IMG/VR virus record: IMGVR_UViG_3300005936_000001 | Coordinates: 62,001 to 126,000 of that record | Direction: 5' to 3' (one strand) | DNA: 64,000 nt | Source of the DNA: a virus | Shown here: positions 1 through 63,415 of the stretch, piece after piece | Position numbering within the stretch: the stretch's first letter is position 1 | Layout: every line of letters begins with the position of its first letter | Program-made: the position numbers and the translations under genes | The notes under the pieces: model-generated | Database searches by the model: none | What the model was told of the DNA's origin: nothing | Seen by the model: the letters and a program-made list of their open reading frames with translations, nothing else

Positions 1-7
1 TTTTTTT

Positions 8-214
8 ATGGATAATCTAGATTTTTTTAATGATTTTTGTAATTGTAATTATAATACAAACCCTGCTTGGATTAGGGCAAAGAGAGATGTATTTTGCTGT
101 CCCGGTGTTTGTACAAAATGTGAGTGCACCGACTGCCTGGTATCTTCAATAAATAGAAAGGCATTTTTAGTGTGGATAAAATGGCAGTTGAATAAGGTTA
201 AGGCAGATGAGTAA
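8..214 (+). CDS. Small Cys-rich protein, FQG/WQ paralogue family (member 1)
   Basis: A 68-residue protein with a CC-x3-C-x2-C-x-C-x2-C cluster followed by the family's C-terminal WIKWQLNK segment. The same Cys spacing and Trp-Gln tail recur in at least eight other small genes in this window. The FQG N-terminus seen in most members is absent, so the true start could lie upstream of the window edge. The Cys cluster suggests a small zinc-binding fold, but no function is known to me. Its 3' end overlaps the start of the next paralogue, so the two are probably translationally coupled. Confidence 0.7.
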   Translation: MDNLDFFNDFCNCNYNTNPAWIRAKRDVFCCPGVCTKCECTDCLVSSINRKAFLVWIKWQLNKVKADE

Positions 215-461
215 AGAAGCATTCCAAGGGTTAACAATTCCTTCTGAAATGTATGATTTTGTAACTACATATTTTGACGAGCTAAATCGTCCGGATACAA
301 AAAGAGATTGGACAGATCTGGACGATAAAATAAATGAAGTAATTTGTCATAATTGTAGTCAGGGTGCATGTTCGGATTGTCTGGTAAGTGAAGATAATCA
401 ACAGCCTTTTGTTGTGTGGTTGAACTGGCAGGTAAATAAAAAGAAAGGAAAAATTACATAG
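207..461 (+). CDS. Small Cys-rich protein, FQG/WQ paralogue family (member 2)
   Basis: An 84-residue protein starting MSKEAFQGLTIP, the family signature, with C-x2-C-x4-C-x2-C in the middle and VWLNWQVNKKK at the end. The start overlaps the previous gene's stop and is preceded by an AAGG-type ribosome binding site. Probably a small zinc protein; function unknown. It sits two bases ahead of the radical SAM gene, so it may belong to that operon. Confidence 0.75.
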   Translation: MSKEAFQGLTIPSEMYDFVTTYFDELNRPDTKRDWTDLDDKINEVICHNCSQGACSDCLVSEDNQQPFVVWLNWQVNKKKGKIT

Positions 462-1590: not shown

Positions 1591-1890
1591 ATGAAATATA
1601 GAAGAGGATTTGTAAGTAACAGTTCCAGCAGCAGTTTCTGTATTATGGGAATTGTATTAGAAGAATCGGTCTGGGAGAATATATCTATACAGGATTCTGC
1701 CTTAACGTATTGTCATGGAATAGATGAGTTTTATGAACAGGTTGTTGTAGGGATGCATGTTGAAAACATGAAAGACGATGAAACAGTCAACCTTTTTAGA
1801 GAAAGAATTATGGAAGAACTCACACGTGCTGGAATTGCCGTAGAGTATAAAGATATAGGTTGGTGTGTCGACGGAGGACGTGATGGATGA
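1591..1890 (+). CDS. SNSSSSSF-leader protein 1
   Basis: A 99-residue protein opening MKYRRGFVSNSSSSSF, a leader shared almost unchanged by the next three genes. The remaining 80 residues are acidic and unlike those of the other three, so the leader is the conserved unit. I recall similar N-termini on hypothetical phage and bacterial proteins, but know no function. It follows the radical SAM gene by 11 nt, with an AGGGAAT ribosome binding site, and overlaps the next gene by 4 nt. Confidence 0.85.
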   Translation: MKYRRGFVSNSSSSSFCIMGIVLEESVWENISIQDSALTYCHGIDEFYEQVVVGMHVENMKDDETVNLFRERIMEELTRAGIAVEYKDIGWCVDGGRDG

Positions 1891-2162
1891 AGAATCGAAG
1901 AGGATTTGTAAGTAACAGCTCGAGCAGTTCATTTATAATACAGAAAAAATATTTGAATAATGAGCAGTTAAATATGATTTATGATCATATCAATGTCGCC
2001 AAGGGAATCCTAAAGGAAGATATGGATTATGATATGCCCTGGGATATAAAGAATCATAAAGATCACATTCGAGGAAGTACAATGATGGATAATTTCGATA
2101 TGCATTACTTCCTTACCGAGATAGTCAAGGTTGATGAAGACCATATTGAATGGGATGACTAA
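1887..2162 (+). CDS. SNSSSSSF-leader protein 2
   Basis: A 91-residue protein opening MKNRRGFVSNSSSSSF followed by an unrelated acidic body. It starts in an ATGA overlap with the preceding gene, implying coupled translation. Membership in the four-gene set is clear from the leader. Function is unknown. Confidence 0.85.
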   Translation: MKNRRGFVSNSSSSSFIIQKKYLNNEQLNMIYDHINVAKGILKEDMDYDMPWDIKNHKDHIRGSTMMDNFDMHYFLTEIVKVDEDHIEWDD

Positions 2163-2164
2163 AC

Positions 2165-2632
2165 ATGAAGAATAGAATAAGATTTGTGAGCAACAGCTCC
2201 AGTAGCAGTTTTATAGTTATTGGGGATGAGCCTTCCAGATGTAATTCTGTACTGCTGGAAAAAGAACAGCGTAAAAAAGTATTGGGATATCTTAAGCTGG
2301 ATATCCCAGACGATGAAGTAGTGTACTTAACTGACTTCGTCTGTGAAGGTGATACAGAGGTTCTGAAAGTTCCGAGAGATAAGATACACTTTTATGCTGA
2401 TGGTGGACATGGACATCCTTATAGTGAAAAGGATTACTATGAGCTGGAGGATGCCGGTGTATGGATAATGAAGGAACACTTTAGTGCTGACGGAGAAGCT
2501 GAGAAAATAATCGAGTGGATTCGCAGAGAAGTTCTCGGGGCTGGATTTACTCTGGACCGACGAAATAACACAGTCTGTCTGGAACATCCAAGAAGCGGTG
2601 CAGGATGGGAAATCATAGAAGATGAAGAATAG
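2165..2632 (+). CDS. SNSSSSSF-leader protein 3
   Basis: A 155-residue protein opening MKNRIRFVSNSSSSSF, the longest of the four. The body contains an HGHPYS segment and an acidic C-terminus, with no domain I recognise. It is spaced 2 nt from the previous stop and overlaps the next gene by 11 nt. Confidence 0.85.
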   Translation: MKNRIRFVSNSSSSSFIVIGDEPSRCNSVLLEKEQRKKVLGYLKLDIPDDEVVYLTDFVCEGDTEVLKVPRDKIHFYADGGHGHPYSEKDYYELEDAGVWIMKEHFSADGEAEKIIEWIRREVLGAGFTLDRRNNTVCLEHPRSGAGWEIIEDEE

Positions 2633-2984
2633 AAAAGGATTCGTAAGTAATAGTTCGAGCAGTAGTTTTATACTCGCTATTAAAGAAGCTATCCCCTGCT
2701 CCCTTTGCGGGAGGAGTGATTTAACATATGATAATTTTATCCAGATGATAGAAGGATCTAACGACTCGGACACTGAATTTAGGGGTGAAGGTCTTAAAGA
2801 GGCGGAAGAGTGGTTAGAATCAGGTTATATGGAGGAAGATAAGCTAAATGAAATAAAGAAAAAGATTAGAAAGTTATCTAAGGATAATGAGATAGTACGG
2901 GTGGATGTATCGTACTGCGATGAGCATATTACTGAGATTATAAAAACATCTCCTAATATTCAGATAGTTTGGAGTAATGAATAA
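2622..2984 (+). CDS. SNSSSSSF-leader protein 4
   Basis: A 120-residue protein opening MKNRKGFVSNSSSSSF. After the leader comes a CSLCG pair and a later YCDEH segment, so it may bind a metal. It is the last gene of the cassette and is followed at once by a rho-independent terminator. Confidence 0.85.
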   Translation: MKNRKGFVSNSSSSSFILAIKEAIPCSLCGRSDLTYDNFIQMIEGSNDSDTEFRGEGLKEAEEWLESGYMEEDKLNEIKKKIRKLSKDNEIVRVDVSYCDEHITEIIKTSPNIQIVWSNE

Positions 2985-43516: not shown

Positions 43517-43663
43517 ATGAAAAAATTAAAAGTAATATGGGAAGAAATTACGTTCACCTTTAAAGAGCTGACAAAATCTGAATTATGGAAAGAAATTACG
43601 TTTGCTATTAAAGAGCTGACAAAGGTGGCCTGGGTGGTAGTTAGATTATTGAGATATTTATGA
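43517..43663 (+). CDS. Small helical peptide with internal duplication
   Basis: A 48-residue peptide in which WEEITFTFKELTKSE is followed by WKEITFAIKELTKVA, a direct repeat of about 16 residues, then a hydrophobic end. AAGGAAGG site upstream; it ends in an ATGA overlap with the next gene. Confidence 0.55.
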   Translation: MKKLKVIWEEITFTFKELTKSELWKEITFAIKELTKVAWVVVRLLRYL

Positions 43664-44070
43664 ATTACTTATACATGTCTTATTATAATGTTTCCGGAGG
43701 AGTGATGATCCGTGTGGATGAGAAATCCCCCAGAATGTTTCCTAATTCCACAACTAATACTCATTTCTATTATGCATGCGGCGATTGGAATATAAAACTG
43801 TATGAGGCTGATAGACATTTTCGTGTAAAGTACAGTATGGTTAGTAATAGGTATCTTATACAGGTACCTCGGCGTTTAGATAGGGGTTTTGGTAATTCAG
43901 TTTTGGTATCTAAAGTATGTTTTCCATTTGTTAAGAATGTGGTGACAGCATATAATAATAAACATTCTAATAATAAGGTACTAAATGAGGATGTCTGGAA
44001 TAACGATAATAAGCTAGAGAATGTATTTAAACACTACAATTTTACAGTACAGCCCGAGGAGACAACATGA
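43660..44070 (+). CDS. MNYLYMSY-family protein (paralogue 1)
   Basis: A 136-residue protein starting MNYLYMSYYNVSGGVMIRVDE. The next gene has a matching N-terminus, and both end in a YNNKHSNNK...DVWNND-type motif also seen at the end of the protein at 45575. Basic, beta-rich appearance. Function unknown. Confidence 0.6.
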   Translation: MNYLYMSYYNVSGGVMIRVDEKSPRMFPNSTTNTHFYYACGDWNIKLYEADRHFRVKYSMVSNRYLIQVPRRLDRGFGNSVLVSKVCFPFVKNVVTAYNNKHSNNKVLNEDVWNNDNKLENVFKHYNFTVQPEETT

Positions 44071-44435
44071 ATTACATATACATGTCTTATAAAAAGATAC
44101 CTGACGGAGTTATAGTGCGTCTGGACGAACGGACATATCCACTTAATTCACCGTTGCATCCCAATCCTTTTATATGGGAGATATGTGGGAAGACTATAAT
44201 CATAATGGGATCGGTAGAGAGTAAATTACATATTAGAAAGGCCCCTAATGAATATAAATTAGTTATTCCTATGTTAGCAGACGAGCAATTAACAAGGGGT
44301 GATAAACTTATGATAATAAAAGAGAAAGATTTTAAATATATAAAGAAAGTTGTATTCGAGTTTAATAATTATTATTCTAATAATAAATTAAAAATGACTG
44401 ATGTCTGGGACAATGATTTTTCATTAAGGCGGTAA
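44067..44435 (+). CDS. MNYLYMSY-family protein (paralogue 2)
   Basis: A 122-residue protein starting MNYIYMSYKKIPDGVIVRLDE and ending FNNYYSNNKLKMTDVWDND. Clearly a diverged duplicate of the preceding gene, which it overlaps by 4 nt. Confidence 0.6.
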   Translation: MNYIYMSYKKIPDGVIVRLDERTYPLNSPLHPNPFIWEICGKTIIIMGSVESKLHIRKAPNEYKLVIPMLADEQLTRGDKLMIIKEKDFKYIKKVVFEFNNYYSNNKLKMTDVWDNDFSLRR

Positions 44436-46793: not shown

Positions 46794-47018
46794 ATGAATA
46801 AATTAAAAGAGGAAAAGTTTCAGGGGCTGGTTATACCTGTCTGGGATAAAGAATTATTCGGGGGTACCGGATATTGTACTGGAGAACCTAACAGCACTCT
46901 CTGCTCTGTATCTGTGGTTATTGTTAATTGTGATAATTGTTTATATTCAAAACATAATACAAAAATGTATAAAAAATGGAAGGGCTGGCAGGAAAGGATG
47001 AATAATGAAGAAGGTTAA
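46794..47018 (+). CDS. Small Cys-rich protein, FQG/WQ paralogue family (member 3)
   Basis: A 74-residue protein with KFQGLVIPVWD near the N-terminus, then C-x2-C-LYS and a KGWQERM end. AAGGAG site upstream. It overlaps the next gene by 14 nt. Confidence 0.65.
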   Translation: MNKLKEEKFQGLVIPVWDKELFGGTGYCTGEPNSTLCSVSVVIVNCDNCLYSKHNTKMYKKWKGWQERMNNEEG

Positions 47019-47238
47019 GGTAATTAAGTATGGTAAAAAAGAATTAGTAAAATGGTTAAGGGAACACAGATATTATAAAGAAGGTAACTGGTTGGAAAAT
47101 TATGAGACTGGTCTTTTAAAAACTAAGATGGTTTTCTTATCTAGTTTTCTTCAGAATTATTTTATGTGGGATACGTCTCCTCAGGGAGATAAAGTCTGGT
47201 ATGATATATATAAGGAAATTATGAAGGATGAAAGATAA
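47005..47238 (+). CDS. Hypothetical basic protein between two FQG paralogues
   Basis: A 77-residue Lys/Trp/Tyr-rich protein starting MKKVKVIKYGKKELVKWL. No Cys, so not itself a member of the neighbouring family. Function unknown. Confidence 0.5.
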   Translation: MKKVKVIKYGKKELVKWLREHRYYKEGNWLENYETGLLKTKMVFLSSFLQNYFMWDTSPQGDKVWYDIYKEIMKDER

Positions 47239-47453
47239 TGGATACATTCCAGGATTTATATATCCCCTTTCTAAGAGATGATTATATTCGTAGGGGATAT
47301 ATAAATAGATGTAATGAAATACGCAATGTATATGAATCACTTAAATGCAATTCAATGGAATGTTGTGAGTGTCTTTACTCTTCCCATAATTTTAAAATGT
47401 ATAATATATGGATGGATTGGAGAAAAAGAAAAGAATCTAAATCTATTAAATAA
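47238..47453 (+). CDS. Small Cys-rich protein, FQG/WQ paralogue family (member 4)
   Basis: A 71-residue protein with MDTFQDLYIP replacing the FQG start, then CNSMECCECLYS and a WMDWRKRK ending. A diverged member closest to member 3 (both have CLYS followed by H-N-x-KMY). Confidence 0.6.
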   Translation: MDTFQDLYIPFLRDDYIRRGYINRCNEIRNVYESLKCNSMECCECLYSSHNFKMYNIWMDWRKRKESKSIK

Positions 47454-47543: not shown

Positions 47544-47573
47544 CTTTTTAAATAATAAACAATGGAGTTAAAA

Positions 47574-48122
47574 ATGAGTACTAAAGCATTAAAAGAAGCA
47601 ATTTTATGGCGTATGGAAAAACGAGCTAGAAGTTTTGATGAGGAAATATCAGAGCGTGGAGATGCTTATAGGCAAATTGCTTCAGACATAGGTTCTGTAG
47701 GTTCTACAGCGGCAGGAGTTATTGGGTCAGCTGGAAAAGCTGCTGGTAATACTGCTGGAAGTGCAGCTTATGGTGCGAGTAGATTAGTAGATCCTGGACT
47801 TTTATATAGGTCTTTAAGAGGAGGAGTTACAGAAGGAGCTAAAGGAGCAGGTATAGGCGCATTAGCAGGGGGCGGATTAGGCTTCGGGCATGGCGCTAAA
47901 CAGGGCTGGGACTACGAAGCTTTAACTAACCAAGATTTAAAAACTAAGCTCATTGCTGCTTTATTAAGTGGGGCTTTACATGGTGGTGTTGGCGCAGTAG
48001 CTGGTGGAGTGGCAGGAGGAACAGCTGGTTCTTTATATGGAGCTTTGAGAGATAATCCTCTGACACATAAAGATAATAAGGATAAAATTTTGAAACTTTT
48101 AGCTGATAAACAAGTGGCCTAG
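47574..48122 (+). CDS. Gly/Ala-rich probable virion or membrane-active protein
   Basis: A 182-residue protein. After a charged N-terminus (ALKEAILWRMEKRA) come two Gly/Ala-rich stretches with glycine-zipper spacing (about residues 45-65 and 95-155), typical of proteins that insert into membranes or form channels. Together with the next two genes it may be a virion protein delivered with DNA. GGAG site upstream. Confidence 0.5.
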   Translation: MSTKALKEAILWRMEKRARSFDEEISERGDAYRQIASDIGSVGSTAAGVIGSAGKAAGNTAGSAAYGASRLVDPGLLYRSLRGGVTEGAKGAGIGALAGGGLGFGHGAKQGWDYEALTNQDLKTKLIAALLSGALHGGVGAVAGGVAGGTAGSLYGALRDNPLTHKDNKDKILKLLADKQVA

Positions 48123-48133
48123 ATATATTCAGA

Positions 48134-49159
48134 ATGCCTACTCAAAAAACATATTTATATACTACTCTTTCCGAAGGTATAGATAAAGAAGCCTCTATAG
48201 ATAAAGAAGCTATAATAGCTTCAGCGACAGCTGCCGCATTTACCGCAATGATGCTCTGGAGTGCGTACGACGCATATAAAAGTGGTAAGTCAGCTATTCG
48301 TAATTTCTCTCAGGGTAATAGTAAACAAGCTTGGAGAGATGTGGGCTGGACGGCTATAGATCTAGTAGGTACAGCCACTGGGTCGGGCTGGGCACTTAAG
48401 TCTCTGGGTAAAGCTACTAAATTAGCAGCACATGCTTCCAGATTACTAAAGGCAGGTAAAGTCGCACAGGCAGTGCCTATTCTTAGAAGGGCAACTAAGT
48501 TGAGAAAAGGTATCCTGGCAGCTAGAATACCCAAGCTTAAGGAGATGGCAGTTATTGCTAAGAAGTCTGGTAAGATGGATGACTATGCTAAATACATGAC
48601 GGATTTAGCAGGTCTTCAGAAGGGTAACGAAGCTGTTATAGCAGCAGGGGAAGCTATTAAGTTTACTACCGGTAAAAGTAATAGAGTAGCTAAATCTTTA
48701 TTAAAGACAATAGAAAGCAGTAACAAGGCCCATACAGCACAGTTAGCTAGGCAAAGTAGGCCCCTATATAAAAACACAATAGGTAAGGTAGCTCCGATTT
48801 ACAAAAATGTTAAGGGAGGTCTGGATGCCACAGTAGGTGAGACTGGTAGAAAAGCGGCTGATCTTTTTAATACTGTAAATATGGCCCCGGCTATGGGAGC
48901 AGCCTGGGTGGCTCCGGGTAAATCTTTAGCTAAAGTTAATAAAATTGTACAGAAGGGTATAAAAAGCAAATATGGAAAAACAGTTACTGAAATGGATAAA
49001 TTGAAATATGTAGCCCCTATAATAGCCCTTGAATTTGGAGTAGCAGGTAAAACATTAGGGAAAAGATATTCCGATAGAGTACAGGATATTGATTTTAATA
49101 GTCAGAATAAATATAAACAAGCACTTTGGTCCGCTAGAAAAGCTAGTAGAGTTATATAG
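48134..49159 (+). CDS. Probable virion protein, basic and Ala/Lys-rich
   Basis: A 341-residue protein with LSEGIDKEASIDKEA at the N-terminus, a hydrophobic helix at about residues 30-45, then Lys/Ala-rich helices. The IDKEA/MEKRA/LEKTA-like motifs at the start of the three neighbouring proteins could mark a shared capsid-targeting or protease-processed leader. No enzyme motif visible. Confidence 0.5.
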   Translation: MPTQKTYLYTTLSEGIDKEASIDKEAIIASATAAAFTAMMLWSAYDAYKSGKSAIRNFSQGNSKQAWRDVGWTAIDLVGTATGSGWALKSLGKATKLAAHASRLLKAGKVAQAVPILRRATKLRKGILAARIPKLKEMAVIAKKSGKMDDYAKYMTDLAGLQKGNEAVIAAGEAIKFTTGKSNRVAKSLLKTIESSNKAHTAQLARQSRPLYKNTIGKVAPIYKNVKGGLDATVGETGRKAADLFNTVNMAPAMGAAWVAPGKSLAKVNKIVQKGIKSKYGKTVTEMDKLKYVAPIIALEFGVAGKTLGKRYSDRVQDIDFNSQNKYKQALWSARKASRVI

Positions 49160-49167
49160 GAGATAAA

Positions 49168-50271
49168 ATGAGTTATTTATTAAAATATTTAGAAAAGACA
49201 GCTTTGGGTAAATCTTTAAGTAGTTTTAACAGCGGAGCAAGAACAACAAAAAGAGTTAAGCCCTCTAGAAGTAATATATCCAGACACCTTAGAGGAAGTA
49301 GATACAGTCGTCCGGGTATACAGACGGAAGGTAGACGTACTACTTCTACAGGAGGCACCCCTTCATCTAAACACAATGTTCAGTCTTTTGTAGGTGATAA
49401 ACCTGAAAGATATAGCCCTCGTACAGATCCTGTTAAAGATACAAGCCCTAATCCTGTAACTGTAAATAAACGTAAAAAACCACCTAAGGACCCATCCAAA
49501 GCCGCATACGGGCTGGTTAATCCTTGGCAGAAAGACACTCCCGGTCTGGGTTCTATGGATCAATCTCATTCTGGCTTAAGAGATAAACAGGAGTCTCCCA
49601 CTGCTCCTGAATATAGTAGTAATGAATCTAAAATAAAAGAAGATATCGCAAAAATGCGTCCTACTAATGACGCAGGTATAGGCACAGGGATGGGACAGGC
49701 GCAGCTCGATAAGACCCAACTTAAACAAACACAGGAGCAGGATAAATATAAACAGATGCAGGATGCCTGGGCAAAGCAGAGACAACTAATAGCTAAAGGA
49801 CATGTCCGTAATTATGCTATGAATCAGTCTAATCCTACACGGGCAAATAGAATGTACCCGAGACCTGAAGACAGAGCTTATGCAGGGTATATGCATAATA
49901 GGAGTGAGGCTTTAGATAAAGCTTCTCCTGCGATGTCCTCTTCTCAGCTATATGGGGCACTACAGGGGCACGGTGACTGGCAGACACCTACAGCTTCCAG
50001 CTTCGGTATGGGTGGAATGATGAATAGACCTAATCCGATGTTCCCTCAGGCATCCACAAATAATATTTTCATACCTCCTAAGCCTCCTTTCCAGCCCCAA
50101 GGTTCCATGACAGGGATAGGCCCACGTATGTCTAATGTAGATCAAACACAGGGAGGATGGGGTAACGCTTCGTGGCCTACAGGTGTACAGAATCTGATAC
50201 CTAAAGATCAAATACAGTTTACAGACCCGAACAGACTTCCATATAGTCAGAGGTTTGCTAATGCACAGTAA
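49168..50271 (+). CDS. Probable virion protein, Pro/Gln/Ser-rich and disordered
   Basis: A 367-residue low-complexity protein. It starts MSYLLKYLEKTALGKSL, then is rich in Pro, Gln, Ser, Arg and Met-Gly turns with almost no hydrophobic core. That composition suits an internal virion or scaffold-like protein. It closes the three-gene operon. Confidence 0.5.
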   Translation: MSYLLKYLEKTALGKSLSSFNSGARTTKRVKPSRSNISRHLRGSRYSRPGIQTEGRRTTSTGGTPSSKHNVQSFVGDKPERYSPRTDPVKDTSPNPVTVNKRKKPPKDPSKAAYGLVNPWQKDTPGLGSMDQSHSGLRDKQESPTAPEYSSNESKIKEDIAKMRPTNDAGIGTGMGQAQLDKTQLKQTQEQDKYKQMQDAWAKQRQLIAKGHVRNYAMNQSNPTRANRMYPRPEDRAYAGYMHNRSEALDKASPAMSSSQLYGALQGHGDWQTPTASSFGMGGMMNRPNPMFPQASTNNIFIPPKPPFQPQGSMTGIGPRMSNVDQTQGGWGNASWPTGVQNLIPKDQIQFTDPNRLPYSQRFANAQ

Positions 50272-50610: not shown

Positions 50611-50671
50611 AGCCTCTTAATCTAATTAGAGGCTTATACAACATTAAAGAGGAGTTTACTCCTCTTTTTTT
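50611..50671 (+). terminator. Double hairpin terminator
   Basis: AGCCTCT/AGAGGCT forms a first hairpin, and AAAGAGGAG-TTTA-CTCCTCTTT with a T-run a second, stronger one. Confidence 0.85.
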
Positions 50672-50693: not shown

Positions 50694-51734
50694 ATGAGGA
50701 CACTAGCTAGTATTGTACAGGTCGAAGAAGTAAAGCCTATCGCGGGGGCTGATTTTATTGAAATGGCTACGCTTAAGGGTAAAGCATGGCAGTGTGTTAT
50801 TAAGAAGGGAGATCTTAAAGCTTCTGAATATGGAGTGTTTATGGAAATTGATTCTTTTTTGCCTGAAGAGCCCCGATATGAATTTTTAAGGAAGGGCTGT
50901 TACAGAGAAATGAATGGGGTAGGTGGGTTCAGACTAAGAACCATAGCTCTCCGTAAACAAATCTCACAGGGGTTATTACTTCCTCTGGAGGATTTTGAGG
51001 AATTGCGTGGATATGGTGTGGGATTTGATGCGACGGAACTTCTAGGGGTTAAGTTATATGAGCCACCTTTATCAGCACAGTTATCCGGAGAAGTAAAAGG
51101 AAGTTTTCCGAGCTGGTTACATAACTCTGAGCAACCTCGTATTCAGAATTTTTTGGAGTATTTTGATACTATGAAAGGAGTGGGCTGGGAGCGCACACTA
51201 AAGATGGACGGGTCGAGTCTTTCTCTATATTGCAGGGATGGTGAGTTCGGAGTATGTTCCCGTACTCGTGAGCTTAAAGAAACAGAAGGTAACACATTCT
51301 GGGAAGTAGCACGTAGACTGGATATGGAAGAACGGATGTGTAAGCTTAACAGGAACCTTATGGTACAGGCGGAACTCTGCGGAGAAGGAATACAGAGTAA
51401 CCGATGTAAACTTAAGGGACATAATATGTTTGTATATGATATCTTTGACATAGACAAGTATGCTTATCTATGTAAGCAGGAGCGTCTGGAGATAATGGAT
51501 AAACTTAATCAGATGCCTGGTGAAGAGATACAGCATGTACCTATAATAGATGATGAGTATGTATTTGATCGTTTCGAAGCGTTTGATGAACTGCATGCAT
51601 GGGTGACATCTGTTAAAGGATACAATGGGACGTCTCCCGAAGGAGTTGTATTCAAAGCATTGCTTCCGGTAGACGGACATATTATTTCTTTTAAAGTTAT
51701 CAATAACAAATATCTGCTGAAACATAATGAGTGA
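50694..51734 (+). CDS. RNA ligase, DRB0094/Rnl5-like family
   Basis: A 346-residue nucleotidyltransferase. An N-terminal OB-like domain (residues about 1-120) precedes the ligase core, with KMDGSS (nucleophile Lys170), an RTREL segment near 193, a QAELCG motif near 224 and EGVVFK near 310, plus a final FKVINNKYLL. The N-terminal OB domain ahead of the adenylyltransferase is the layout of the DRB0094-type family. It probably repairs host-cleaved tRNA or other nicked RNA. Confidence 0.75.
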   Translation: MRTLASIVQVEEVKPIAGADFIEMATLKGKAWQCVIKKGDLKASEYGVFMEIDSFLPEEPRYEFLRKGCYREMNGVGGFRLRTIALRKQISQGLLLPLEDFEELRGYGVGFDATELLGVKLYEPPLSAQLSGEVKGSFPSWLHNSEQPRIQNFLEYFDTMKGVGWERTLKMDGSSLSLYCRDGEFGVCSRTRELKETEGNTFWEVARRLDMEERMCKLNRNLMVQAELCGEGIQSNRCKLKGHNMFVYDIFDIDKYAYLCKQERLEIMDKLNQMPGEEIQHVPIIDDEYVFDRFEAFDELHAWVTSVKGYNGTSPEGVVFKALLPVDGHIISFKVINNKYLLKHNE

Positions 51735-51969
51735 GTTTCAGGGACTAATAATATCTAAAGGAGCTTATGAAGATGTAAGCTCCTATTTATCAGAACATAT
51801 GAATCACGCTTCAAAGGACACATTCATTTCAGCTACATTATCAAGGATGGGCTGTACACTACCAAATTGCCCAGGTTGTCCCTGTTCTGAATGTCTATTT
51901 TTTGTAAGTAATGATTCCGCTTTAAAAAAATGGATAGCGTGGCAGATAAGGAGGATAAAGAATGAGTGA
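51727..51969 (+). CDS. Small Cys-rich protein, FQG/WQ tandem cluster copy A
   Basis: An 80-residue protein: MSEFQGLIISKGAYEDV at the start, CTLPNCPGCPCSECLFF in the middle and WQIRRIKNE at the end. First of five tandem copies. The final Arg-Arg-Ile codons (AGG AGG ATA) double as the ribosome binding site of the next copy, which starts 8 nt before this one stops. Confidence 0.8.
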   Translation: MSEFQGLIISKGAYEDVSSYLSEHMNHASKDTFISATLSRMGCTLPNCPGCPCSECLFFVSNDSALKKWIAWQIRRIKNE

Positions 51970-52201
51970 GTTTCAGGGACTAATAATAAGTGAATGTAGT
52001 TTTAAGAGAATATTGGAAGCAATTAATCATAGAGATATTAGTAATATATCAGAAGAAGCTCTTGAATATTTTAGGGGGGTAGGATGTATCCAGAATTCGT
52101 GTATCGCTAGTAATTGTAAAGGTTGTTTACTCGATACATATCATATACATATATTTAAGAAGTGGATTCAATGGCAGATGAGGAGGATAAAGAATGAATG
52201 A
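51962..52201 (+). CDS. Small Cys-rich protein, FQG/WQ tandem cluster copy B
   Basis: A 79-residue paralogue with identical first nine residues to copy A, a C-x4-C-x4-C-x2-C cluster and the WQMRRIKNE end. The central region differs strongly from copy A, so only the ends and Cys are held constant. Confidence 0.8.
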   Translation: MSEFQGLIISECSFKRILEAINHRDISNISEEALEYFRGVGCIQNSCIASNCKGCLLDTYHIHIFKKWIQWQMRRIKNE

Positions 52202-52436
52202 GTTTCAGGGATTAAAAATATCTAAAGGAGCTTATAAGGATGTACGCTCCTATTTATTAAGAAGTATAAATAACATTTCACAGTATGATTACTTTTTTGT
52301 TAACATAACAAATAAGGGCTGTACATCATCAAATTGTCCGGGCTGTGCCTGTTCGAAATGTCTATTTTTTACACCCAATAAATCTGTTCTAAAAAAATAC
52401 ATACAGTGGCAATTAAGGAGGATAAGGTATGAATGA
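52194..52436 (+). CDS. Small Cys-rich protein, FQG/WQ tandem cluster copy C
   Basis: An 80-residue paralogue closest to copy A (shared ISKGAYKDV and CPGCACSKCLFF), ending WQLRRIRYE. Translationally coupled to both neighbours. Confidence 0.8.
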   Translation: MNEFQGLKISKGAYKDVRSYLLRSINNISQYDYFFVNITNKGCTSSNCPGCACSKCLFFTPNKSVLKKYIQWQLRRIRYE

Positions 52437-52671
52437 GTTTCAGGGATGTGCGATATCTGAACCAGCTTATAAGCAGGCTATCCTTAGTTTATCAGAGGGT
52501 CGTATCCAAGGGGTAATGTCCTTAGTTCATACGGTCTGTACAATAAGGAACTGTCCCAACTGCATTCCATGCGCAGACTGTTTATTTAATGTACGAAATA
52601 GACGTAAGTTAACAAAGTGGATGCTCTGGCAGAAAAGGAGGATATACTATGAACGAGTTCCAAGGGTGTAA
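52429..52671 (+). CDS. Small Cys-rich protein, FQG/WQ tandem cluster copy D
   Basis: An 80-residue paralogue with CTIRNCPNCIPCADCLF. It reads through the usual RRIxYE end and adds five residues, overlapping the next copy by 23 nt. Confidence 0.75.
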   Translation: MNEFQGCAISEPAYKQAILSLSEGRIQGVMSLVHTVCTIRNCPNCIPCADCLFNVRNRRKLTKWMLWQKRRIYYERVPRV

Positions 52672-52918
52672 AATTACAGATGGATCCCTCCGTGATATAC
52701 ATAATTTTCTACTAGAGGTTTTTGAAGATACAGATGTAGGAGATATAATTTACAGGGCTCGTGATATAGGGTGTACCATTAAATATTGTGGTACCGGGGT
52801 CGAATGTAATGAGTGTCTATTATCTAATTTTAACAGACGTATATATGTAAAATACATACAGTGGCAGTTAAGGAGGATAAGGTATGAAAGAACTGGAAGT
52901 ACAGAAGTACCTTCGTAG
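52649..52918 (+). CDS. Small Cys-rich protein, FQG/WQ tandem cluster copy E
   Basis: An 89-residue paralogue (MNEFQGCKITDGSL, CTIKYCGTGVECNECLLS, WQLRRIRYE) with a nine-residue extension that overlaps the following RNA ligase gene by 35 nt. The ligase uses this copy's C-terminal AGGAGG as its ribosome binding site, as the paralogues use each other's. Confidence 0.75.
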   Translation: MNEFQGCKITDGSLRDIHNFLLEVFEDTDVGDIIYRARDIGCTIKYCGTGVECNECLLSNFNRRIYVKYIQWQLRRIRYERTGSTEVPS

Positions 52919-54062
52919 CGGTAAAACGCCGGAGGAGTTAAAAGAGGAGTTGGGGATTAAGTTCGGTCTCTATGAAGATATGATAATATTAAATTATTCT
53001 CAAATAAATTCCGTTAAATCAAATACTATAGTACAGGAGTGCCGGTCTCTGATACTGGAACAGGATACATGGGATCTGGTGTCTATGGCATTCCGGAGAT
53101 TCTTTAATAAGGGTGAGATGCTGGAGATAACAGACAGCTTTAATTTTAACGGGGCTGTAGCTCAGGAGAAGATAGATGGGTCTATAATATCGTTATTCCA
53201 TAGACATGACAGATGGTATATGTCGACTCGTTCCAGCATTGAAGGCAGAGGACAGGTGATGTTTAATGATATAACCTTTAAGAGCCTGTTTGAAAGAACT
53301 CTGAGGGATACAAAGTATTACGATAGATTTAACAAAGAATACATCTATATATTCGAACTGGTTTCTCTGGACAACAAAGTAGTTCGGGTGTACGAAGAAG
53401 ACACACTATATCTATTAGGCATGCGGGATGCATCTTCTTTCGAGGAGTCTGAATACAGGGAAATACAGTCAGAATATGGTAGACTTAATATACCGACTGT
53501 CAAGCTTCCCAAGTTATACAACTTCGATAACATTGAAGAGTTACTGCAGATGCATAAAGATATGGAAGCTACAGAGGAAGGTTTTGTAGTCGTCAATTAC
53601 AACAAGAGAGAGCAGGGTAATTTCGCCCGGCTTAAAGTCAAGAATCCAGCACATGTGGCAATAGCCCATATGAAAGACCATGGGGGAGCCAGTATGAGAT
53701 GTATCCTGCAGTTGATTATTCTAGGGGAGGAACAGGAATTTCTTTCTTATTTTCCTGAGTTCATGCCCTTGTTTAATCCTCTTAAGAAAGTGTACGACGA
53801 GTACTTGTTAAGGATAAATAATGACACGTTGTACATACAGGAAGATCTTAATAATAAGCTGGGGCGTAAAGAATACGCTATGATAGTTAAAAGCATGACA
53901 TGTCCTGCTCTGATGTTTGAGATGTATGACGGAAGGGCTTCATCGTTCAGAGATTATGTAGATAATTATACAGCTCTGAAAGGTCTGAAGATATTCGCTA
54001 AGAATCTGTTAAAGATTCTTAAGTTTAAAGACAAAGAACTTAGTACTAGTCAGGAGGGGTAG
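52884..54062 (+). CDS. rnlA: T4 RNA ligase 1-like enzyme
   Basis: A 392-residue ATP-dependent RNA ligase. ECRSLILEQ near residue 52 and FFNKGE near 73 match Rnl1 motifs, and EKIDGSIIS carries the nucleophile Lys96, close to Lys99 of T4 Rnl1. Later motifs are FELVS near 157, GFVVVNY near 231 and LKVKNP near 249. The C-terminal helical region fits the tRNA-binding domain of T4 Rnl1. In T4 this enzyme reseals host tRNA cut in the anticodon loop. A second ligase of another family lies in the same operon. Confidence 0.8.
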   Translation: MKELEVQKYLRSGKTPEELKEELGIKFGLYEDMIILNYSQINSVKSNTIVQECRSLILEQDTWDLVSMAFRRFFNKGEMLEITDSFNFNGAVAQEKIDGSIISLFHRHDRWYMSTRSSIEGRGQVMFNDITFKSLFERTLRDTKYYDRFNKEYIYIFELVSLDNKVVRVYEEDTLYLLGMRDASSFEESEYREIQSEYGRLNIPTVKLPKLYNFDNIEELLQMHKDMEATEEGFVVVNYNKREQGNFARLKVKNPAHVAIAHMKDHGGASMRCILQLIILGEEQEFLSYFPEFMPLFNPLKKVYDEYLLRINNDTLYIQEDLNNKLGRKEYAMIVKSMTCPALMFEMYDGRASSFRDYVDNYTALKGLKIFAKNLLKILKFKDKELSTSQEG

Positions 54063-54626: not shown

Positions 54627-54866
54627 GTAGGGTTTTAACCTCCTAAGCCTCTCAACGATGCTTAAATCGGGATGTCGCGAAAGGTCGACTAAGTAGCGTC
54701 ACGGAGTTTTCGGTCTCTGGGTAAAGCCGTTCAATCTTTAAATACCGGATCTATTCAGTTATGGCGCTATAGGAACCCACTGAATATGAAGGTCGTGCAG
54801 TCCAAATGCGTCTGGGAATCCAGCGGTATTTATTTTACTTTAATCTTTAAAAAGGAGGGGGGGGGT
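54627..54866 (+). promoter_or_regulatory. Long structured 5' leader
   Basis: About 240 nt between promoter P6 and the chosen start. GATGC/GCGTC encloses GTCG/CGAC near 54657-54704, and ATTCAGT (54753-54759) pairs perfectly with ACTGAAT (54779-54785). The leader ends in an unusually rich AAAAAGGAGGGGGGGGT site. It may be a cis-regulatory RNA for the zinc protein and radical SAM genes; no known riboswitch class recognised. Confidence 0.45.
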
Positions 54867-55256
54867 ATGAAAATAGGGGTAATGAAACCACCAAAAATTG
54901 AATGGAGAATATTAGATGAATCTGACCACACGTATTATATGACCTGTAATAAGTGTGGTCAAACAGGGGACATAGCATACAGCTGGGAAGCAAGCGATAA
55001 GCCATTTGATTGGATAAATAACAAGGGGTCATGGATACAGACAGAGGAATATACTTGCCGTACCTGTCTAGATAAGTTCATGGAGCAGTTTATTAATAAT
55101 AATTGCTCCAATGTTAATAGTGATATTTGTGATACTTGTATATTGACAAACTGTCGTTCAAATAGAACACCAAAAGTTATGCAACTAAAAGCAAATCGAT
55201 TAAGAGATAAATTATTAATATTTGAATATTATTTAAATCAAAAAGGAGAAGTATGA
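54867..55256 (+). CDS. Cys-rich zinc protein upstream of a radical SAM gene
   Basis: A 129-residue protein with CNKCGQ near residue 29, CRTCLDK near 67 and C-x2-C/C pairs (DICDTCILTNC) near 90. The last part (C-x2-C-x4-C, then a basic helix) loosely resembles the FQG/WQ proteins. I chose the ATG after the AAGGAGG run; an in-frame ATG at 54786 lies just after a hairpin and lacks a site. Overlaps the radical SAM start by 4 nt. Confidence 0.6.
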   Translation: MKIGVMKPPKIEWRILDESDHTYYMTCNKCGQTGDIAYSWEASDKPFDWINNKGSWIQTEEYTCRTCLDKFMEQFINNNCSNVNSDICDTCILTNCRSNRTPKVMQLKANRLRDKLLIFEYYLNQKGEV

Positions 55257-58671: not shown

Positions 58672-59789
58672 TCAGTAGCCTCGTCGTGGGGCTGGGAGCA
58701 GGGGATGAAGCTAAGGGTCTGGTGACAGACTACTTAGCTCATTCCTGGTTTTCCACTAAAGCCCTCAACATTAGGTTTTCAGGGGGTCACCAAGCTGGGC
58801 ATACTGTTGTATCCGGGGATTTTAGACATGTATTCTCTAATTTCGGTTCGGGTACTTTCAGGGGATTACCTACATACTGGTCTAAGTATTGTACAGTGGA
58901 GCCTGTAGGTTTGATGGTAGAATATGAATTACTTAAGAGTAAAGGTTTGAAGCCTGTAATTTATATAGATGCCAAGTGTCCTGTGACTACTCCTAATGAT
59001 ATAGGAAGTAACAGAGAAACAGAAGAGGTCAATAAGCATGGTTCGTGTGGTGTTGGAGTAGGGCAGACTTTCCAGAGAGAAGAGGATCATTATTCCTTAA
59101 CTTTCATGGATTTGTTCTATCCGGAGATTCTAAAAAAAAGAATTCGTCTCATCGCACATTATTACATGACTAAGAAAAGAGATACATATTCTCTCACTGC
59201 ATTCTATGAAAGCTGTGAGAAGATAGCAAGATGTGATGATATAAAACTGGTCCACGAGATGCCTGAGTATTCTTCTACTATTTACGAGGGGTCACAGGGA
59301 TTACTACTGGATCAGAACTTTGGGTTTTTCCCGAATGTCACACGTTCAAACACGGGAAGTAAGAATGCTGTCGCTATACAAGGTTCATCCGACTTTCATA
59401 TATATCTGGTAACCAGAGCCTATCAGACCAGGCACGGTAACGGATTTATGTCTAAGGAAGATATCAAACATAATATATTGACAGACCCCCTGGAAACAAA
59501 CCAAACAGGTAAGTATCAGGGGGAGTTTCGAAGAGCTATACTCGATGTGTCTATGCTCGAGTATGCTATTAATAAAGATGATGTTATTCGTAACGCAGGT
59601 TCCCGGACATTGGTAGTAACATGTCTCGACCATCTGTCGGAGTATTGTCTTTATTATAAAGGTTGTTTCCTACGATGTAATAATGAGTCAGACTTCATTA
59701 CATTTATTTCCAGTACATTGGGAATAGATAACGTACTCATAAGTAGGAGTAATGACTCAAAAAACATAGAGGAGTTTAACAGTTCATAA
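58668..59789 (+). CDS. Adenylosuccinate synthetase-like enzyme (PurA/PurZ type)
   Basis: A 373-residue protein with a GTG start overlapping the vWA stop. Family motifs: LGAGDEAKGL near residue 9 with the catalytic Asp kept, SGGHQAGHTV near 40, EGSQGLLLDQNFG near 206 with SNT, TRAYQTRHGNGF near 246 and NQTGKYQGEFRRAILD near 276. The length fits the short archaeal and phage PurZ branch, not bacterial PurA at about 430 residues. PurZ enzymes make the precursor of 2-aminoadenine in some phage genomes. Retention of the Asp leaves a plain PurA-like activity possible. Confidence 0.75.
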   Translation: MISSLVVGLGAGDEAKGLVTDYLAHSWFSTKALNIRFSGGHQAGHTVVSGDFRHVFSNFGSGTFRGLPTYWSKYCTVEPVGLMVEYELLKSKGLKPVIYIDAKCPVTTPNDIGSNRETEEVNKHGSCGVGVGQTFQREEDHYSLTFMDLFYPEILKKRIRLIAHYYMTKKRDTYSLTAFYESCEKIARCDDIKLVHEMPEYSSTIYEGSQGLLLDQNFGFFPNVTRSNTGSKNAVAIQGSSDFHIYLVTRAYQTRHGNGFMSKEDIKHNILTDPLETNQTGKYQGEFRRAILDVSMLEYAINKDDVIRNAGSRTLVVTCLDHLSEYCLYYKGCFLRCNNESDFITFISSTLGIDNVLISRSNDSKNIEEFNSS

Positions 59790-62506: not shown

Positions 62507-63415
62507 ATGAAAACAAAAGTAAACGTAGGAGTAATAGTCGGTAGGTTTCAGGTAGCCGAACTGCACGAGGGACACAAGCAGTTAATTCAAAGTGTCCGGA
62601 ACGAGCACAATAAGGTTATTATATTTCTAGGGCTGTCTGTATGTGTCGGGACAAAGAACAACCCTCTAGATTACGAAGCCCGTAAGCAGATGATACTCCA
62701 GACATTTCCGGAGATCATTGTAGGGTATATACAGGACATGCGTAACGACGAAGTATGGTCTACAACCCTGGACAGAGAGATCAACAAACTCAAGAGTCCC
62801 GCGGAAAACGTAACCCTGTATGGAGGCAGAGATGCTTTCATTAAGCATTATTCAGGTTATTTCCCTGTAGTAGAGCTGGAGCCTGAGATATATATCTCCG
62901 GTTCTCAGGAGCGGGAGAAGGTAAGTTCTAAGGTAGTTTCTTCTCAGGAATTCAGAATGGGTGTCATATGGAGAGCATACCATCAATACCCCAGATGTAT
63001 TCCTACAGTGGATATCGCTATAATCAGGGATAATGAGGTACTTCTTGCACAGAAGCCCGGAGAGGACACGTGGCGCTTCGTAGGGGGTTTCGCGGACGGT
63101 AAGACGTCTTTTGACGTAGATGCCCGCAGAGAGGTGTTGGAGGAGACAGGATTGGAAGTTGGAGATATGGAATATATCTGCAGCTTGCCTATCGATGATT
63201 GGAGATATAAGGGTGAACAGGACAATATCGTAACGACATTCTTTAAAGCCAAGTATGTATTCGGCTCTCCTAAACCGATGGATGATATATGCGGGCTGAA
63301 GTGGTTTGATATGACACATATCAAAGTAGAGGAAATCAATGAGGTACACCGTCCGCTAATGGAAAAACTATTGGGGATGGGATTATTAATAATGGAGGGA
63401 GATTCTATAGTATAG
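62507..63415 (+). CDS. Bifunctional NMN adenylyltransferase/Nudix hydrolase
   Basis: A 302-residue two-domain protein. The N-terminal nucleotidyltransferase has GRFQVAELHEGH near residue 11 (HxGH-type site) and an SGSQEREKVS-like ISGSQ turn near 130. The C-terminal Nudix domain has a GFADGKTSFDVDARREVLEETGLE box near 190. Such fusions make NAD from NMN and hydrolyse ADP-ribose. In phages they help restore NAD+ after host NAD-depleting defence. GGAG site before the chosen ATG. Confidence 0.85.
   Translation: MKTKVNVGVIVGRFQVAELHEGHKQLIQSVRNEHNKVIIFLGLSVCVGTKNNPLDYEARKQMILQTFPEIIVGYIQDMRNDEVWSTTLDREINKLKSPAENVTLYGGRDAFIKHYSGYFPVVELEPEIYISGSQEREKVSSKVVSSQEFRMGVIWRAYHQYPRCIPTVDIAIIRDNEVLLAQKPGEDTWRFVGGFADGKTSFDVDARREVLEETGLEVGDMEYICSLPIDDWRYKGEQDNIVTTFFKAKYVFGSPKPMDDICGLKWFDMTHIKVEEINEVHRPLMEKLLGMGLLIMEGDSIV

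Follow-up and report, generated by a model that had tools for sequence, protein, structure and literature searches.

Two RNA ligase genes enclose five small genes in tandem in this stretch of a large uncultured phage, and all seven overlap in one chain. The window, that is the whole stretch of 64,000 bases that was analysed, covers bases 62001-126000 in a virus record of 185,256 bases; the rest of the record was also read, in stretches, for the whole-genome counts. The record ends overlap by approximately 110 bases and a contig from a second sample crosses them, 100% identical over the regions compared, indicating an essentially complete genome that is either circular or terminally redundant. 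Other contigs of the same phage are likewise 100% identical. The five tandem copies (c1 to c5) and four genes at two further loci make up the FQG family, and the features discussed below are as follows (window coordinates; E-values are from leave-one-out profiles unless stated otherwise).

1..214 in the window, GTG start at genome 61957, + strand: m8, FQG-family protein, 85 aa; profile E=4.7e-20, leave-one-out E=8.3e-13
207..461, + strand: m207, FQG-family protein, 84 aa, with an 8-nt overlap with m8 and 2 nt 5' of the radical SAM gene 464; E=6.4e-14
46794..47018, + strand: m46794, FQG-family protein, 74 aa; E=1.3e-9
47238..47453, + strand: m47238, FQG-family protein, 71 aa, FQD start, WR end; E=1.6e-7
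50646..50667, no strand: terminator-like inverted repeat directly 5' of the chain
50694..51734, + strand: RNA ligase 1, PHA02142/RNA_ligase, PHROG 968; first gene of the chain, 8-nt overlap with c1
51727..51969, + strand: tandem copy c1, 80 aa; E=3.6e-25
51962..52201, + strand: tandem copy c2, 79 aa; E=2.2e-16
52194..52436, + strand: tandem copy c3, 80 aa; AlphaFold pLDDT 81.6; E=1.2e-23
52429..52671, + strand: tandem copy c4, 80 aa; E=8.8e-16
52649..52918, + strand: tandem copy c5, 89 aa; E=7e-20
52884..54062, + strand: RNA ligase 2, T4 Rnl1-type, RNA_lig_T4_1, PHROG 562
51949..51954, + strand: AGGAGG, Arg-Arg codons of c1 and Shine-Dalgarno of c2, 7 nt 5' of the ATG
52181..52186, + strand: AGGAGG, Arg-Arg codons of c2 and Shine-Dalgarno of c3
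52416..52421, + strand: AGGAGG, Arg-Arg codons of c3 and Shine-Dalgarno of c4
52636..52641, + strand: AGGAGG, Arg-Arg codons of c4 and Shine-Dalgarno of c5
52871..52876, + strand: AGGAGG, Arg-Arg codons of c5 and Shine-Dalgarno of RNA ligase 2

A profile of the nine-row alignment, searched against the whole 185,256-base record, returned exactly nine paralogues at three loci and none elsewhere in the genome; the weakest member was m8 (E=4.7e-20), the next best open reading frame stood at 0.14, and a full-genome repeat gave the same result. In leave-one-out profiles, every member was recovered by the other eight (E = 1.6e-7 to 3.6e-25), with no non-member scoring better than 0.013; the five tandem copies alone also retrieved the four distant members, and the reverse profile worked as well. 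This kinship is far beyond chance, and the nine genes are one paralogous family. The original prediction had described an expanded family of at least nine genes at these places, arisen by tandem duplication, with four or more Cys in each protein and its largest cluster between two RNA ligases. All of this holds: the nine genes are present, five of them in a row, 4-8 Cys were counted in each of the nine translations, and Pfam assigns PHA02142/RNA_ligase to the gene on one side of the cluster, which lies in an accessory region, and RNA_lig_T4_1 to that on the other.

The proteins measure 71-89 aa. Their alignment has the invariant columns F, Q, I, C, C, L and W, and common to all nine are an F-Q-(G/D)-x2-I start, a cluster of four Cys ending in CxxCL, and a Trp in the C-terminal helix. 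The FQG-type start and the basic Trp-Gln tail that had been named as shared marks are only partly so. The start reads FQ in every member, including m8, whose gene is cut by the window edge and begins at a GTG 44 bases before the window (window position -43) that has a GAGGAG-type site, the protein beginning MGTFQDKDIHP..., and two of the nine read FQD instead of FQG. Likewise the Trp is present throughout, but m47238 ends in WR and the tail of m46794 (WQERMNNEEG) is not basic. These two genes are split by an unrelated gene at 47005-47238. We claim no branching order for the family, since the inner branches of its tree have no support and the end branches are too long.

The chain of RNA ligase 1, c1 to c5 and RNA ligase 2 has no gaps, its successive overlaps being 8, 8, 8, 8, 23 and 35 nt (8 between ligase 1 and c1, 35 between c5 and ligase 2); each 8-nt junction is a NTGNNTGA overlap. 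All five tandem copies end in TGG-CAR-NNN-AGG-AGG-AT, placing AGGAGG 7 nt 5' of the next ATG, and the conserved Arg-Arg of their tails, encoded AGG AGG in five of five, is at the same time the Shine-Dalgarno of the following gene. AGG makes up 15% of the Arg codons in the genome; a count of 122 Arg-Arg dicodons over the gene list places every AGGAGG in c1 to c4, and c5, which lies outside the filtered list, has it as well. The four members outside the array have no Arg-Arg and their junctions differ. Part of the conserved tail of the tandem copies, and with it of the proposed basic tail, is therefore an RNA signal and not a protein motif. Because each copy contains in its 3' end both the Shine-Dalgarno and the start of the next, joint production is expected, and from this arrangement we infer that the tandem copies should be made together by coupled translation. 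An 8-nt overlap belongs to the spacing classes that are enriched among prokaryotic gene pairs, and a nearby Shine-Dalgarno influences translational coupling (PMC12548453). The FQG junctions share this known spacing class and the internal Shine-Dalgarno with such pairs, and differ from them in that every tandem copy holds the next Shine-Dalgarno in the same conserved codons.

The family is probably new and specific to this lineage, having no counterpart in the libraries searched. No member scanned had a significant match in Pfam, PHROGs, NCBIfam, PADLOC or the PDB sequences; searches of IMG/VR contigs with single members and with the five-copy alignment returned only 100% identical contigs of the same phage; and no relative was found in GTDB genome contigs, or by tblastn with four members and the consensus against 50,697 GenBank phage records. 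Weak tblastn matches in Bacillus phage phi18 and Limnohabitans phage DC31 (E 2-5) were rejected, there being no profile match in those records. A DNA pattern of the junction likewise had zero matches in IMG/VR contigs. The family is absent from phages with a related capsid protein (50-82% identity), most records of which may be incomplete, the 146 kb record of the relative with 82% capsid identity being certainly so, and from ten phages picked mostly for having the same ligase or capsid protein. By capsid, the nearest cultured relatives are the Vibrio phages D69, D181 and D148 and Salmonella phage Arash, at 28%.

AlphaFold models made with the nine-row alignment reached a mean pLDDT of 81.6 for c3 and 77.3 for m207 and agree in how their elements follow one another (hairpin, helix, helix, Cys loop, long helix), although the two models are not independent, being built on one common alignment. 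Foldseek gave no match at E <= 0.001 in the PDB for either model or in a viral model library for c3, and the best VIA score (Z 4.0, to a homeodomain chain) was within background, which does not establish a new fold. Most members resemble zinc ribbons and knuckles in having four Cys, spaced roughly C-x(2-5)-C-x(4-5)-C-x2-C, beside helices. They differ in having no Pfam, NCBIfam, PHROG, PDB sequence or structural match, and in an order of hairpin, helix, helix, knuckle and helix that has no counterpart in the libraries searched. Judging from the Cys spacing in a presumed cytoplasmic protein, the cluster is likely a Cys4 site binding one zinc ion.

Divergence between the copies was measured with pairwise codon models under a shared neutral rate, comparing the middle (residues 11 to about 42) with the rest of the protein. 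The dN/dS of middle and rest was 1.57 vs 0.61 for c1-c3 (p=0.006), 0.69 vs 0.24 for c1-c4 (p=0.001), 1.47 vs 0.50 for c3-c4 (p=0.002) and 0.68 vs 0.14 for c3-c5 (p=1e-5); the middle cannot be aligned with certainty, and this would inflate its values. Several pairs stood at parameter bounds because their synonymous sites are saturated and were left out, and a middle dN/dS significantly below 1 in c2-c5 (0.30, p=0.005) comes from a saturated pair. The middles thus evolve faster, or are less constrained, than the ends, and the highly variable middles of the original prediction are confirmed as regions of weaker constraint than the scaffold. Across the informative pairs the middle dN/dS ranges over 0.66-1.57, never significantly above 1 (p(not 1) >= 0.29), so that positive selection is not demonstrated. 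An arms race between phage and host, proposed earlier for these genes, finds agreement in the relaxed middles and none in a dN/dS above 1, and should be taken as possible rather than demonstrated; at about 1, the middles do not show the values well below 1 that, along with a housekeeping partner, would speak against it. None of the nine copies has lost its reading frame, its FQ start or its set of at least four Cys, despite saturated synonymous sites in most pairs, indicating that the proteins are under selection.

The ends of the copies have a mosaic appearance. C1 and c2 are identical over 28 nt across the start and then fall to 30% identity, and c3 and c5 match exactly over 18 and 21 nt at their ends with the remainder saturated. 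This pattern suggests junction recombination or gene conversion between copies, which would explain the mosaic ends, though it may be due in part to constraint on the start region and Shine-Dalgarno.

The 15 kb around the cluster hold the two RNA ligases, a radical SAM gene, a homologue of adenylosuccinate synthetase and a NadM-Nudix gene, with NAMPT just past the window. Phages are known to counter host defences by regenerating NAD and by repairing RNA, and the setting makes an accessory, host-facing role of the FQG family plausible, though nothing stronger. The NadM-Nudix gene (window 62507-63415) and NAMPT are likely a pair for NAD salvage or counter-defence. The adenylosuccinate synthetase homologue (window 58914-59789; PF00709, E=2.2e-23) is possibly PurZ-like, and at window 54786-55256, near the cluster, is a 156-aa Cys-rich protein with a CDTCILTNC stretch that the FQG profile does not recover. 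At least four radical SAM or radical SAM-like genes are present (genome 24425, 62464, 117253 and 132651), one of which resembles B12-binding radical SAM enzymes.

Other small genes have been amplified in the same genome. The largest set consists of 44 KGQL open reading frames, genes of 65-95 aa with the motif YNxxxQPIxYKGQLxxGDxV, nearly all of them in one array outside the window (genome 129213-144858) with single outliers at genome 21642 and 166210; as an array of paralogous small proteins it is much larger than the FQG family, and among the capsid relatives its pattern occurs in a single open reading frame beyond this phage's own contigs. Twelve proteins (genome 144898-172344) have the N-terminus MNKxAYYxGYMxKEA, which resembles a capsid-targeting or protease-processed inner-head signal, and a tandem pair of paralogues starting MNYxYMSYxxxxxGVxxRxDE lies at window 43660-44435. 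Four tandem genes starting MKxRxxFVSNSSSSSF (window 1591-2984) directly follow the radical SAM-like gene 464 on its 3' side; in Vibrio phage D479 the same SNSSSSSF N-terminus is found 1.4 kb from the homologue of gene 464, and the two may be functionally linked. Given the 44 amplified KGQL frames, amplification by itself argues only weakly for an inhibitor set or an arms race.

We suggest, with a probability of roughly 0.45, that the FQG proteins are lineage-specific small accessory proteins, amplified in tandem, that serve as adaptors or inhibitors for host takeover or counter-defence; the role is drawn from their context, size, diversification and absence in relatives. Each would be a single-domain, cytoplasmic protein with a predicted anatomy of an N-terminal beta-hairpin (FQGxxI), a helix, a variable helix or loop, a four-Cys knuckle and a C-terminal helix with W..WQ. 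Hairpin, knuckle and last helix would form the conserved scaffold, and the fast-changing middle would be the likely partner-specific surface. The family would have grown by duplication inside each locus, each copy becoming an intracellular adaptor or inhibitor with its own target. A bolder version, which we consider rather unlikely, sees the array as self-chaining cassettes: with tail codons doubling as the ribosome-binding site of the next unit, junction recombination could insert units, remove them or supply them with new middles and leave expression intact, yielding an expandable set of zinc scaffolds with different targets.

The main rival to the accessory-protein reading, and one with a considerable though lesser chance of being correct, is that the expansion is mainly mutational. 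The lineage would readily duplicate small genes, and the middles would drift with no arms race, the ends staying conserved through the demands of the fold and of the next ribosome-binding site. The 44 KGQL frames, the four SNSSSSSF proteins and the twelve proteins with the MNKxAYY start, all in one genome, fit such a tendency; a middle dN/dS of about 1 is what relaxed constraint predicts, and the Shine-Dalgarno constraint accounts for part of the tail. However, the frames, FQ start and Cys kept in all nine copies point to selection at work, and relaxed middles on a kept scaffold equally fit diversification of partners. It is improbable that the FQG proteins instead assist the flanking ligases in an RNA repair module, by binding RNA or the ligases themselves. 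In T4, tRNA cleaved by anticodon nucleases is repaired by Rnl1 together with Pnk (PMC2610378); five copies are chained between two RNA ligases, and in other phages homologues of the T4-type ligase adjoin Pnk and NAD genes. Against this, four of the nine members occupy two other loci that have no ligases, no Pnk was recognised in the genome with phage Pnk queries, and the family is absent from phages with the same ligases.

Two further alternatives concern what the small proteins might be made for. That they are minor virion or ejected proteins is very unlikely: the genes at 47562-50271, between two of the loci, have short N-terminal stretches that by eye loosely recall head-region proteins, but the FQG proteins do not have this stretch and lie outside the structural gene block. 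Least probable of all is that they are RiPP-like precursor peptides of a radical SAM enzyme, composed of a conserved leader and a variable core. The likeness to known precursors consists in small Cys-rich products adjoining a radical SAM gene at one FQG locus, where m8 and m207 stand directly 5' of gene 464, homologues of which carry a radical SAM annotation, and another radical SAM gene is found 2.3 kb 3' of the cluster. A RiPP core should vary, whereas the C-terminal half is the most conserved part of the FQG proteins and is predicted to be a folded helix. The link is also missing in other phages with the same radical SAM gene, the gene 464 homologues in Vibrio phage D479 and Cronobacter phage GAP161 having no such neighbour, and no radical SAM gene adjoins the locus of m46794 and m47238.

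For the reading of the FQG proteins as amplified accessory proteins, the closest documented precedent of amplification is T4 tifA, a small ToxN inhibitor amplified in tandem by recombination (PMC9391042). In the tifA/dmd antitoxin locus, too, a small accessory protein of a phage (85 aa) acts on a host defence toxin, and copy number grows by tandem amplification, via short homologies, among other counter-defence genes (PMC9391042). The tifA repeats are identical copies of one segment and recent in origin, while the FQG genes are coding paralogues that have diverged and are linked in a chain by their own ribosome-binding sites, and the likeness would be one of outcome, not of homology.

Expanded sets of small accessory proteins are well worth searching for new phage inhibitors of bacterial functions. 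The FQG array adds an example in which a conserved "protein motif" is in part the translation signal of the neighbouring gene, a trap for anyone who reads function into the motifs of short phage genes that overlap. Should the copies indeed have different targets, the design of the junctions would constitute a simple natural route to a growing set of co-expressed binders.
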